Source: Streptomyces afghaniensis 772
GTDB lineage: Bacteria; Actinomycetota; Actinomycetes; Streptomycetales; Streptomycetaceae
Direction of reading: 5' to 3'
DNA: 45,855 bases
Assembly: GCA_000415505.1 (NCBI GenBank)
Contig: KE354178.1
Span: 1 to 45,855 of the forward strand
Shown here: positions 6,485 through 10,887 of the stretch, one piece after another
Layout of the letters: each line of letters opens with the position of its first letter
Position numbering within the stretch: the stretch's first letter is position 1
Made by a program: the position numbers and the translations under genes
The notes under the pieces: generated by a model
What the model was told of the DNA's origin: nothing
Databases searched by the model: none
What the model saw: only the letters and a program-made list of their open reading frames with translations

Positions 6485-7090
6485 ATGTCGGAGCTTCTCG
6501 TCGACTTCATCACCTCCCTCGACGGCCACGCATCGGGAGAGGGATGGCCCGGGTTCTGGGGCCTCGAGGGCCCGGAGTACCTCGCATGGCTCGGTGAGCA
6601 GCCCGAGGCCACCTACCTGATGGGAGCGAACACCTACCGCTTGATGTCGGGCTTCGCCGCAGGCGAGGTCCCGAGTGGCCAAGACGAGTTCAGGCCCGAA
6701 GAAGAGGCGTCCGTCGACGAGCTCACGCAAGCGTCCAAGGTGGTGTTCTCCTCCTCACTCGAGGAGCCACTGACGTGGGCCAACTCCACGCTCGTCCGCG
6801 ACGACGCCGTCGAGGCGGTCCGCGCCATGAAGTCGAGTGGCTCGGGGCTCCTCAGCACGATCGGCAGCATCAGCCTGTGCCGGTCGCTGCTACGAGCCGG
6901 ACTCGTCGACCGCTTCCGGGTCGTGATGTTCCCGGTGATCACCGGGGCCACGGGCGAAGAACGCATCTACGACGGCTATCCGGACGTTGCCCTCGAGATG
7001 ATCGAGCACCGCACCTTCGACGGCCGCATCCAGTTGGTCGAGTACAAGCCCCGCGTGCTCGAGCACCCGCCGCTCGGCGTCCCTGCGTGA
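6485..7090 (+). CDS. Dihydrofolate reductase/RibD C-terminal-like protein
   Basis: This 201-residue protein belongs to the DHFR-like/RibD-C fold: an N-terminal strand LLVDFITSLDGHASGEGW, LMGANTYRLMSGF (the conserved G-x-x-T-Y segment), KVVFSSSLEEPLTWANS, then GLLSTIGSISLCRSLLRAGLVDRF with a degenerate glycine motif for NADPH, and a VVMFPVITGATGEERIYDG end. Proteins of this group are usually stand-alone NADPH-dependent reductases of unknown substrate; many occur in actinobacteria. The start is preceded by CAGGAAAGGACACCGCC. Nothing nearby shows the pathway. Confidence 0.8.
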   Translation: MSELLVDFITSLDGHASGEGWPGFWGLEGPEYLAWLGEQPEATYLMGANTYRLMSGFAAGEVPSGQDEFRPEEEASVDELTQASKVVFSSSLEEPLTWANSTLVRDDAVEAVRAMKSSGSGLLSTIGSISLCRSLLRAGLVDRFRVVMFPVITGATGEERIYDGYPDVALEMIEHRTFDGRIQLVEYKPRVLEHPPLGVPA

Positions 7091-7181
7091 CGTCGTCCCG
7101 TCCGCCGGTCTGGACGGCCGTCAGGCCGGCGCCGGCGGGCGCGGAGCAAGACCTGATCAATAAAACCGCGAAGGGCTTGCT

Positions 7182-7371
7182 GACAGCCTCGCCACCGTGG
7201 CTCTCGCGATGATGGGGGAGGACCCCAATGCACCAGCGCTGGAGGACGTTCGGCGCGCCGTGCGAGGGGCCGTCGTACCGGGCTCACAGGGACGATGAGC
7301 CGCCGGCGGACCTGGAGGCGGCGTGCACGTGGCTCGCGGCCCACTCTCTTGAGCGGATGGGCCCGTACTAG
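7182..7371 (+). pseudogene. Integrase (tyrosine recombinase) fragment beside tRNA-Arg
   Basis: The 450-bp stretch 7091-7540 has no intact gene. It contains two adjoining reading-frame pieces that resemble the N-terminal SAM-like part of integrases from actinomycete integrative elements. The first is LADSLATVALAMM...ALEDVRRAVRG (7182-7298, ending at TGA). The second is DEPPADLEAACTWLAAHSL (from 7294, ending at TAG 7369-7371). The catalytic half is missing. The fragment points towards the 3' end of tRNA-Arg(CCG), the position expected for int next to an attachment site. It is probably the scar of a lost integrated element. Confidence 0.55.
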
Positions 7372-7451
7372 GCGCGCCGGTCGGGCGCCACTCACGCTGA
7401 TCGTGTCGAGTGTCGATCGCAGGTCTATCGCGACCAGCGCGAAACAACGAC

Positions 7452-7488
7452 AAAGAGCGGGAGTCAGTGAGACTGACTCCCGCTCTTT
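7452..7488 (-). terminator. Terminator hairpin after tRNA-Arg
   Basis: A perfect 17-bp stem (7452-7468 with 7472-7488) with a 3-nt loop lies 52 bp beyond the tRNA 3' end on its strand. The outer AAA/TTT closes the arms. This is a strong intrinsic hairpin without a long U run. Confidence 0.85.
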
Positions 7489-7540
7489 CATGTCGGCATC
7501 CGCCCTGGTCAGCGTGTGATTTCTGCTGATCTTCGGCGAG

Positions 7541-7612
7541 TGCCCCCGGCAGGATTCGAACCTGCGCACACGGCTCCGGAGGCCGTTGCTCTATCCCCTG
7601 AGCTACGGGGGC
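7541..7612 (-). tRNA. tRNA-Arg (anticodon CCG)
   Basis: The minus strand folds as a full cloverleaf: acceptor stem GCCCCCG/CGGGGGC, D arm with AGCTCAGGGGATAGAGC, anticodon stem ACGGC/GCCGT around loop CTCCGGA (anticodon CCG, reading CGG), and T arm GCAGG-TTCGAAT-CCTGC. The discriminator is A and CCA is not encoded. Its 3' half is a typical attachment site for integrative elements, and an integrase fragment lies just downstream. Confidence 0.97.
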
Positions 7613-7775
7613 GTGTCGGTCGCGTTGCTCGCGGCGACGGGTAGAACACTACCAGCTCCCTCGGCGTGGTCATGAACGGGTTTCCGCTGTCGGGGGCGGG
7701 GTTGTGGGTCGCCCGGTCGGGGTGGAAGTGGGGAAAACCCGGACGCGGTGGCCGGGGCCGACCTACTCTCGAGTT

Positions 7776-9479
7776 GTGCCAGGCGCGTCGGGCCGGGTGC
7801 TTGTTGTGGACGACAACAAGGTCATCCGGCAGTTGATCAGGGTCAACCTCGAGCTGGAGGGGCTTGAGGTCGTGACCGCGGCCGATGGTGCCGAGTGTCT
7901 CGATGTCGTTCATCAGGTGCGGCCCGATGCCGTGACCCTCGACGTCGTCATGCCCCGGCTGGACGGGATCCGGACCGCCGCTCGCCTGCGAGCCGATCCG
8001 CGTACCCGTGACATGCCCCTCGCGATCATCAGTGCCTGTACCCAGTACGAGGTCGAGGCCGGGCTCGAAGTGGGCGTCGACGCCTTCCTCGCCAAGCCCT
8101 TCGAGCCCGCTGAACTCGTCGGGATGGTGCGGCAGTTGATCGAGCGGGAGCGGAGTGGGGGCAGGCCGGGGGCGGTAGTCGTGCCGCCGGCGGTGGTGCG
8201 CCGGCTTACGGGTCCGTCCTCGGTGCGGGGGAGGCCGAACGGGCCGGGAGCGCCGGCGGGTGATCCGTCGGCCGCGTACGGATCGCCGGTCCATAGCCGT
8301 GCACGGCGGCTGTGCACAGCAGCTGCCACGGCCCTCACGCCCCGCGTCCACATCCCGGACCCTTCCCGAAACCGGCTCGCCTCCGCACCCCCCTCCTCCC
8401 ATACGCTTGTCCCCGTGACCCCCGTCGAGCTCTCCCGCACCGTGCTGCACGCCGTGCGTCGCGCTGTCGACGAGGGCGAGCTCAGCGTGACCGTGCCGGA
8501 GCGGGCCGTGGTCACTCCGCCGGGGCCCGGGGGCTGTGGCGACTACGCCACCGGCATCGCCCTCCAGCTGGCCGGCGCGGCAGGGCAGCCGCCGCGGCGC
8601 GTGGCCGAGATCCTCAGGGCGCGGCTTGCGGGGGAGGCCTTCATCGGCGATGTCGTCGTCACGGGGCCCGGATTTCTCAACTTCAGCCTGGAACACGACG
8701 CCACCGCACTGCTCGTCGAGGAGATCCTGCGGCGTGGGCGGCGGTACGGCCACGCCGAGGGGGCCGGCGGGACCGTCGTGCGGCTCCGGTGCCCGGCAGA
8801 GGTCCGTGCCGTCGTCGTCGCGGATGCCCTGGCCCGCGTGCTGCGCAGCCAGGGTGACGTCGTAAGCGTCACGTGCGACGGCCGGCCCGCGCCGGAGTGG
8901 GAGACCGTCCTCGGTGTGGATGCCGACCCATCGGGCAGTCGCTCCCGCTCCGCAGGCCCCCGCTCCCTCCCCGACCTCGACATCACCATCCACCCCGCCC
9001 CCGCCCCCACCGACCCCGTGCCCCTCGGCCGCGACGCCGGCCGCTGGGCACTGCTGTACCCGGCCGCCCACGACCGGCCCCGGATCCCCGGTGATCACCT
9101 GGTCCAGCGGGAGGCCAACCCTCTCTTCCGCGTCCGGTACGCCCACGCCCGCACCCGGGCACTCCTGCGCAACGCCGCCGACCTGGGCTTCCACCCCGAG
9201 CCCGGCCCCGTGAGCGACGCGGAGGCACTGCTCGCCGCCCTCGGCGACCACCCCCGCATCCTCACCACCACCGCCACCCACCGCGGCCCCGACCGCCTGG
9301 CCCGGCACCTCGTCACCGTCGCCGACGCCACGCTGCCCCTGCTCCCCGCCGTGCTGCCCCTCGGCGACGAGAAACCCTCGGCCGCCCACCGTGCCCGGCT
9401 CGCCCTCGCCGAAGCCGCCGGGGCGGTGCTGGCCGGTGGCCTGTCCCTGCTCGGCATCGACGCACCCGACCACCTCTGA
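7776..9479 (+). CDS. Response-regulator receiver domain, reading in frame into NrtL
   Basis: From GTG 7776 the first about 125 residues form a complete CheY-like receiver: acidic pair D12-D13, phospho-acceptor D56 ([11 protein letters not shown]), switch S86 and K107 (AKPFEP). There is no DNA-binding output domain. No stop occurs before 9477, so translation would give a 567-residue protein joining the receiver, through a Pro/Gly/Arg-rich linker (about residues 127-213), to the ArgRS-like protein described next. The linker looks non-coding in composition and contains a promoter-like element. I therefore suspect two genes whose separating stop was lost, but a genuine fusion is not excluded. No histidine kinase is adjacent. 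Confidence 0.6.
8402..8407 (+). promoter_or_regulatory. Candidate -10 for a leaderless nrtL transcript
   Basis: TACGCT lies 7 nt before GTG 8415, the spacing seen for leaderless actinobacterial messages, and there is no ribosome-binding sequence before this GTG. A clear -35 is not seen. This supports a separate nrtL start inside the longer frame. Confidence 0.45.
8415..9479 (+). CDS. nrtL: ArgS-related anticodon-binding protein NrtL
   Basis: This 354-residue protein is built from parts of arginyl-tRNA synthetase. The N-terminal domain (about 1-95, ending [15 protein letters not shown]) resembles the ArgRS N-domain. A short vestige of the first Rossmann segment follows ([20 protein letters not shown]), in which the HIGH signature is absent. 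The catalytic core and KMSKS loop are missing. It resumes at [20 protein letters not shown], the ArgRS link to the DALR anticodon domain, which fills the C-terminus. It should bind tRNA or similar RNA but cannot aminoacylate. It lies 16 bp upstream of lysA, the position of true argS in Corynebacterium. Confidence 0.82.
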
Positions 9480-9495
9480 GAGACGCATACCGATC

Positions 9496-10887
9496 ATGAG
9501 CCGTTCCGCACACCCCGCCGGGCCCCGTCACGCCGACGTCCTCCCCGAGGGCCACTACTCGGCGCCGCCCGCCGACCTGAACGCCCTGGACCCCAAGATC
9601 TGGGCGCAGACCGTGACGCGTGACGAGCACGGTGTCGCCACCGTCGGGGGGATCTCCGTCACACGGCTCGCCGAGGAGTTCGGCACCCCGGCCTACTTCC
9701 TCGACGAGGCCGACTTCCGGGCCCGCGCGCGTGCGTGGCGTACCGCGTTCGGGGCCGACGCCGACGTCTACTACGCCGGCAAGGCGTTCCTCTCCCGTGC
9801 CGTCGTGCGCTGGCTGCACGAGGAAGGGCTGAACGTCGACGTCTGCTCCGGCGGCGAGCTGGCCACCGCCCTCTCCGCCGGCATGCCCGCCGACCGCATC
9901 GCCTTCCACGGCAACAACAAGTCCGTCGACGAGATCACCAGGGCCGTCGAGGCCGGTGTGGGGCACATCGTGCTCGACTCCTTCCAGGAGATCGCCCGCG
10001 TCGCCCACATCGCGCAGAGCCTCGGGAAGCGGCAGAAGGTCCTGATCCGGATCACCGTCGGTGTCGAGGCTCACACCCACGAGTTCATCGCCACGGCCCA
10101 CGAGGACCAGAAGTTCGGCATCCCGCTGGCCGGCGGGCAGGCCGCCGAGGCGGTACGCCGTGCCCTCCAGCTCGACGGCCTCGAACTCGTCGGCCTCCAC
10201 AGCCACATCGGTTCGCAGATCTTCGACATGTCCGGGTTCGAGGTCGCCGCCCACCGGGTCGTCTCGCTGCTCAAGGACGTCCGCGACGAGCACGGCGTCG
10301 AGCTGCCCGAGATCGACCTCGGCGGCGGGCTCGGGATCGCGTACACGAGTGACGACGACCCGCGCGAGCCGCACGAGATCGCCAAGGCGCTCAGCGAGAT
10401 CGTCAGCCGTGAGTGCGAGGCCGCCCAGCTGCGCACGCCGCGCATCTCCGTCGAGCCGGGCCGCGCCATCGTCGGCCCGACCGCCTTCACGCTCTACGAG
10501 GTCGGCACCATCAAGCCCCTCGACGGGCTGCGGACGTACGTCTCCGTCGACGGCGGCATGTCGGACAACATCCGCACCGCGCTCTACGACGCCGAGTACA
10601 GCGTCGCACTGGTCTCCCGCACCTCCGACGCCGAGCCGATGCTCGCCCGGGTCGTCGGCAAGCACTGCGAGAGCGGGGACATCGTCGTCAAGGACGCGTT
10701 CCTGCCGGCCGACCTGGCACCGGGTGACCTCATCGCCGTACCGGCCACGGGCGCCTACTGCCGGTCCATGGCCAGCAACTACAACCACGTGCTGCGGCCG
10801 CCCGTCGTCAGCGTGCGGGACGGCGAGGCCCGGGTGATCATCCGCCGTGAGACGGAGGAGGACCTGCTGCGTCTCGACGTCGGCTGA
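9496..10887 (+). CDS. lysA: Diaminopimelate decarboxylase
   Basis: LysA removes CO2 from meso-diaminopimelate to give lysine, using PLP. The 463-residue product shows the PLP lysine in [18 protein letters not shown], the phosphate-binding [17 protein letters not shown], and the catalytic CESGD loop and [12 protein letters not shown] segment of the fold-III decarboxylases. ATG 9496 follows nrtL by 16 bp with a weak upstream GAGAG. A hairpin 20 bp after the stop separates it from hom. The N-terminus is about 40 residues longer than in E. coli, normal for actinobacteria. Confidence 0.96.

Follow-up and report, generated by a model that had tools for sequence, protein, structure and literature searches.

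The stretch of DNA analysed here, referred to as the window, comprises 45,855 nucleotides (contig KE354178.1, positions 1 to 45,855) of Streptomyces afghaniensis 772, the source genome being a 9.85 Mb draft assembly that comprises 1724 contigs and is 99.89% complete. An open reading frame scan of the window revealed a stop-free frame on the forward strand at 7704-9479. Translation from the GTG at 7776 yields 567 amino acids (aa), in which the receiver residues D12, D13, D56, S86 and K107 are all present. Searched against Pfam (E ≤ 0.001), this frame matched only Response_reg (residues 8-118; E = 4.8e-24), Arg_tRNA_synt_N (225-305; E = 1.2e-12) and DALR_1 (453-567; E = 1.3e-15), and no ANTAR domain was found. 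It scored 486.6 bits against the NCBIfam model NF045898 (NrtL; cut-off 340). Frame, residues and both profile searches thus bear out the description in a first-pass annotation of a full CheY-like receiver running stop-free into NrtL. The occurrence of the two domains in 7776-9479 is more than chance; the open linker between them is not, since 40% of dinucleotide shuffles of the window's 240-base linker stayed open in a given frame. An antisense frame of 662 aa (7509-9497, reverse strand) likewise spans the receiver gene and nrtL; frames of this kind are common in such G+C-rich DNA, and it is no evidence of a gene.

The receiver gene

The conserved part of the receiver gene occupies 7776-8165 on the forward strand. 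It encodes the acidic pair, the phospho-accepting Asp, the Ser/Thr and the Lys of a CheY-like single-domain regulator (PF00072, E = 4.8e-24), and shares 72-96% identity over the aligned part with the receivers of 103 relatives. Receiver length in 128 relatives was 139 aa upwards (median 155 aa), with highly variable tails. The protein ends after the receiver, with no output domain, in 127 of the 128; the frame in the window runs on, its original stop lying one frame away. Judged by type and gene order, the window receiver corresponds to SCO5351 of S. coelicolor, in which we take SCO5353 to be lysA. A protein of this type likely binds a partner protein and in this way relays a phosphorylation signal. 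In the passages that name it, SCO5351 is listed as a CheY-like orphan response regulator ('CheY, oRR') and reported as a positive regulator of actinorhodin and CDA as well as of aerial growth and sporulation (PMC9739842), is counted among actinorhodin modulators (PMC6585502), and has a homologue termed a widespread pleiotropic regulator (PMC9137472).

The divergent neighbour of the receiver gene is a tRNA-Arg gene (anticodon CCG; 7540-7612, reverse strand), the sole tRNA gene detected in the window by ARAGORN. Among 13 selected loci scanned, this tRNA gene was present in five of five from Streptomyces and in four of eight from elsewhere. One genome (G049) carries two more receiver copies, 78% identical to that of the window (G049:C1:76532-76948 and 10600190-10600606), far apart near both ends of a single 10.7 Mb contig and in opposite orientation, as in terminal inverted repeats.

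NrtL lacks the catalytic core of arginyl-tRNA synthetase

The nrtL gene (8415-9479, forward strand) encodes 354 aa with the N domain (PF03485) and the DALR domain (PF05746) of arginyl-tRNA synthetase (ArgRS). Tested alone, NrtL scored 488.6 bits against NF045898, 'ArgS-related anticodon-binding protein NrtL' (cut-off 340), and belongs to that family. Against the ArgRS model TIGR00456 it reached 43 and 31 bits (cut-off 261.65), and the HIGH/KMSKS core is absent, as had been noted at first pass. Alignment with five full ArgRS proteins confirmed this: the HLGH/HIGG segment and about 200 core residues, KMSKS included, are missing, while NrtL retains the N domain, the DALR domain and a small portion of the core. 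The anticodon-binding domain of NrtL is a match to PF05746 only, and an AlphaFold model (19 sequences; mean pLDDT 59.8, pTM 0.35) is good only over about residues 1-90. From its alignment, NrtL appears to be a remnant of argS without the catalytic core; with the tRNA-contacting parts of ArgRS retained, it is predicted to bind tRNA-Arg, probably without charging it. A complete ArgRS is encoded elsewhere in the source genome (contig C483; 450 bits, TIGR00456).

The NF045898 cut-off was passed in 87 of 119 genomes of the order and, among the matches listed, all passing ones lie within the genus; 17 genomes of the genus were, by count, below it. Fifteen genomes of other families scored 113-162 bits per listed stretch, because their full ArgRS shares the outer domains with NrtL. 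Among the papers listed for the term NrtL, titles and abstracts concerned the non-random two-liquid model and other uses of the acronym.

Both genes are preceded by leaderless-type start signals

A -10-like box, TACTCT (7764-7769, forward strand), lies 6 bases before the receiver GTG at 7776, and a second, TACGCT (8402-8407, forward strand), 7 bases before GTG 8415, as in leaderless-type promoters. According to two published studies, most TAnnnT boxes of S. lividans lie 5-7 bases from the start point, with 17% of transcripts being leaderless (PMC8079986), and in S. coelicolor the leaderless share is 21% (PMC4895711). A TAnnnT motif was present 3-9 bases before the receiver start in all 128 relatives and before the NrtL start in 127, the exception (L075) having an N in the box. 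The signal before GTG 8415 that the earlier annotation had pointed out is therefore real as a motif and, because the box is kept in 127 of 128 relatives, we infer that NrtL has its own leaderless-type start. Some 45 bases ahead of NrtL are conserved, including a block AAACCGG...TACGCTTGTCCC. A sigma-70 pattern scan of 7000-9700, which requires both hexamers, gave no promoter.

The intergenic stretch containing the putative NrtL promoter (8264-8414, forward strand) is read through in the fused frame. Its GC content by codon position is flat (0.71/0.71/0.75, versus 0.83/0.55/0.91 for NrtL), and receiver-to-NrtL distances in the 128 relatives fall into all three frames (47, 50 and 31 for frames 0, 1 and 2, respectively).

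Further sequence elements were observed around the two genes. The block before the receiver start, at about 7722-7775 (GTGGAAGTGGGGAAAACCCGGACG...TACTCT), is strongly conserved across the 128 relatives and is a possible regulator site. At about 8346-8414 there is a GTCCACATCCCGGA-like sequence with an inverted repeat GTCC/GGAC, which 45 of the 128 intergenic stretches contain; 30 of 128 have GAAACCGG or GAAACAGG 45-47 bases before NrtL.

The receiver stops before NrtL in nearly all relatives

A first set of 103 relatives with both genes (29 + 74 loci) contained no fusion. Addition of 25 regions gave 128 relatives with both genes on one piece; compared across 480 bases of the receiver stretch, 126 of these are distinct. 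One relatives search had yielded 80 loci, six of which had no receiver and carried NrtL close to where the piece begins. The receiver stops before NrtL in 126 of the 128. In one relative (L136) the receiver stop overlaps the NrtL start, and in one (L125, from the single contig of G005) the receiver-NrtL frame is open over 579 aa. The linker of L125 contains a TGA in another frame, in a sequence context as at the receiver stop of a further relative (L132).

Two more samples were consistent with this picture. In a sample of 119 genomes of the order, which included 103 further genomes of the genus, frames over NrtL of at least 479 aa were checked among the matches listed, and none of the 22 long-frame regions was a fusion (one repeats a record already counted). 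In the best 11 nucleotide matches among 392 genomes of the genus, four of which repeat earlier records, the receiver ends at 154-173 aa without exception and no fusion was seen. Pooled over all samples, read-through occurred in 1 of 154 distinct sequences. A search for a linker stop in relatives, the check proposed at first pass, thus speaks against fusion, and no conserved receiver-NrtL fusion family is apparent (1/128, 0/22 and 0/11 relatives). From shuffled linkers, and with a frame match in one case out of three, 17.6 open joins would be expected among the 128, a rough figure as the linkers include part of the receiver tail; one open join was seen. Open joins are thus rarer than this chance figure, which fits selection keeping receiver stops.

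A probable one-base frameshift separates the receiver from its original end

Pairwise alignments of the window with two close relatives (G009 and G237) revealed a one-base gap at about 8166-8172, which was also present in a 12-sequence alignment. These positions (forward strand) form a C/G run that is one base shorter than in G009 and G237, resulting in a frameshift whose exact place within the run is arbitrary. In the pairwise alignment with S. coeruleorubidus, the window tail displayed longer gaps and not the one-base gap. Downstream of the run, the original receiver end is still present at 8204-8263 (forward strand): its last 19 residues, identical to the peptide of the G009 locus (L009), are followed by TGA 8261-8263, and this end is no longer in frame with the receiver start. 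With this TGA the receiver would comprise 162 aa, as in G009 and G237; S. coeruleorubidus ends its receiver at the corresponding TGA after 161 aa.

The 20 end codons of window and G009 differ at four sites, all of them third positions; in the original frame all four differences are synonymous, and in the fused frame all four are non-synonymous. Compared with the more distant L043 and L010, respectively, the original frame had 4 and 5 synonymous and 4 and 5 non-synonymous codons, versus 1 and 2 synonymous and 7 and 8 non-synonymous codons in the fused frame. The tail peptide is intact and the differences are synonymous in the original frame, so the end of the receiver gene has survived and the fused reading must be either recent or erroneous. 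Because Gly, Ala and Pro are abundant in the receiver tail (8168-8263), its codon-position GC does not discriminate between the two frames. As the original TGA persists in the neighbouring frame, a one-base frameshift is the likelier cause of the lost stop than a changed stop codon. Of the alternatives offered at first pass, a phospho-receiver fused to a tRNA-binding protein finds no support, given the stops in close relatives and the intact tail and TGA in the other frame. The other alternative, a lost stop with NrtL also made alone, was correct in essence: it is supported by the stops of the relatives and by the conserved -10-like boxes, from which separate production of NrtL would follow; a change of the stop codon itself is the less likely form of that loss.

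The window contig was surveyed for further frameshifts gene by gene against S. coeruleorubidus and G009, starting from 35 and 38 predicted frames, of which 5 and 3 were dropped for want of a window match. None of the 30 and 35 matched frames contained a coding frameshift elsewhere on the contig, by a method that is blind near gene ends. The survey did not flag the receiver shift itself, and the contig error rate is therefore poorly bounded. Its sole candidate, near 20.72-20.80 kb (indels of net zero versus S. coeruleorubidus and minus one versus G009), was counted as non-coding, as it lies before the start, MFEAVEEL, of the next gene, which we take to encode RF1.

Outside the genus the receiver precedes a full argS

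Sixteen genomes from outside the genus were examined, 15 belonging to the order and one to the class. In 13 of them (L179-L181 and L184-L193), a receiver precedes a full-length ArgRS frame, both lying on one strand of one piece; the receiver of L193 is truncated at the end of its contig. The match starts are 0.37-1.26 kb apart, a figure that spans any small gene between. These are related receivers (37-66% identity), and in Streptomyces nrtL occupies the place of argS. In one of the other genomes (G067) receiver and ArgRS lie on separate contigs, and in two of the 16 no receiver was seen near ArgRS. In a 77% complete draft (G075), the receiver and a full ArgRS (HLGH, KLSKR) share one 709-aa frame on the reverse strand (L191; 1618-3745 in reversed coordinates), which may be the same kind of accident as in the window. 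Because the receiver precedes a full ArgRS in 13 of 16 genomes, argS most likely stood at the nrtL place before decaying into nrtL. The gene order indicates that the receiver-argS neighbourhood is old and does not by itself imply a functional link; the amino-acid genes after nrtL are likewise plain neighbours.

Discussion

We conclude with high confidence that 7776-9479 comprises two separate neighbouring genes joined by an accidental frame in one genome. The first, originally of about 162 aa, would encode a single-domain CheY-like orphan response regulator of the SCO5351 type, and the second NrtL, a probable relic of the argS gene seen at that place in related families. In nearly every Streptomyces genome examined the two are neighbours, each with its own putative leaderless-type promoter. 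A net loss of one base in the C/G run of the fast-changing receiver tail would have shifted the receiver off its own stop, into the reading frame of nrtL, by chance free of stops up to that gene. NrtL would still be made alone from GTG 8415, as the conserved -10-like boxes suggest, and the 567-aa product, if made at all, would be accidental. Against this reading, GC by codon position in the receiver tail does not speak for either frame, and read-through recurs, though rarely: into NrtL in L125 and into a full ArgRS in L191.

Whether the missing base reflects a real mutation or a sequencing error is a matter of roughly equal odds. We give an even chance to an error of sequencing or assembly, the strain then having two ordinary genes. 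The shift sits in a C/G-rich run of a draft in 1724 contigs, and everything downstream fits an unbroken receiver tail; the lack of any coding frameshift elsewhere on the contig, albeit by a method blind to gene ends, weakens this explanation and leaves the two-gene reading untouched. A real and recent frameshift is nearly an even bet. In this case a receiver-NrtL fusion would be made from the receiver promoter beside free NrtL, and would be tolerated because the tail matters little. The clean result for the 30 and 35 matched genes, the great variation of receiver tails and the like read-through in a second genome (L125) point in this direction. However, shifts close to gene ends escape the survey, as the one in the receiver did, the assembly consists of 1724 contigs, and the original tail differs only synonymously from that of G009, so that a real frameshift would have to be very recent. 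A selected, working fusion in which receiver phosphorylation controls tRNA binding by NrtL, as the adjoining genes in Streptomyces and the receivers upstream of full ArgRS outside the genus might suggest, is highly improbable given that almost no relative is fused and that the would-be linker holds both a stretch without codon-position bias and the conserved NrtL promoter region.

With two separate genes as the preferred reading, a false gene fusion is removed, illustrating that one missing base in G+C-rich DNA can mimic a new protein architecture. The finding worth keeping is that an orphan receiver persistently neighbours argS or the relic of that gene, nrtL. Among the titles and opening lines of abstracts searched, none reported a pairing or fusion of a receiver with argS or ArgRS, the Streptomyces lysA neighbourhood included. 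It is conceivable, if unlikely, that receiver and ArgRS form an old working pair, in which ArgRS or NrtL may be under the control of receiver phosphorylation, a link that would couple tRNA-Arg handling to development and antibiotic production. The receiver would then have stayed beside nrtL in Streptomyces after the enzyme core was lost, and the few frames that read through would count as naturally occurring hints of the partnership.

A receiver acting on an RNA-binding module, put forward at first pass as novel, would not be new in kind. ANTAR response regulators such as AmiR, NasT, EutV and PdtaR consist of a receiver joined to an RNA-binding module. The receiver-NrtL frame would share this plan; it differs from them in having no ANTAR domain by Pfam and in its apparently accidental joining. 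NrtL resembles arginine--tRNA ligase (argS, TIGR00456) in that the N and DALR domains align and the gene holds the same place as argS in other families, and departs from it in the loss of the HIGH segment and of about 200 core residues including KMSKS. Within the NF045898 family, the NrtL of the window is a full-length match whose sole difference is the upstream open frame. Similarly, the window receiver and SCO5351 are both single receiver domains of the CheY-like orphan type, and what sets the former apart is its C-terminal tail, frameshifted into nrtL.
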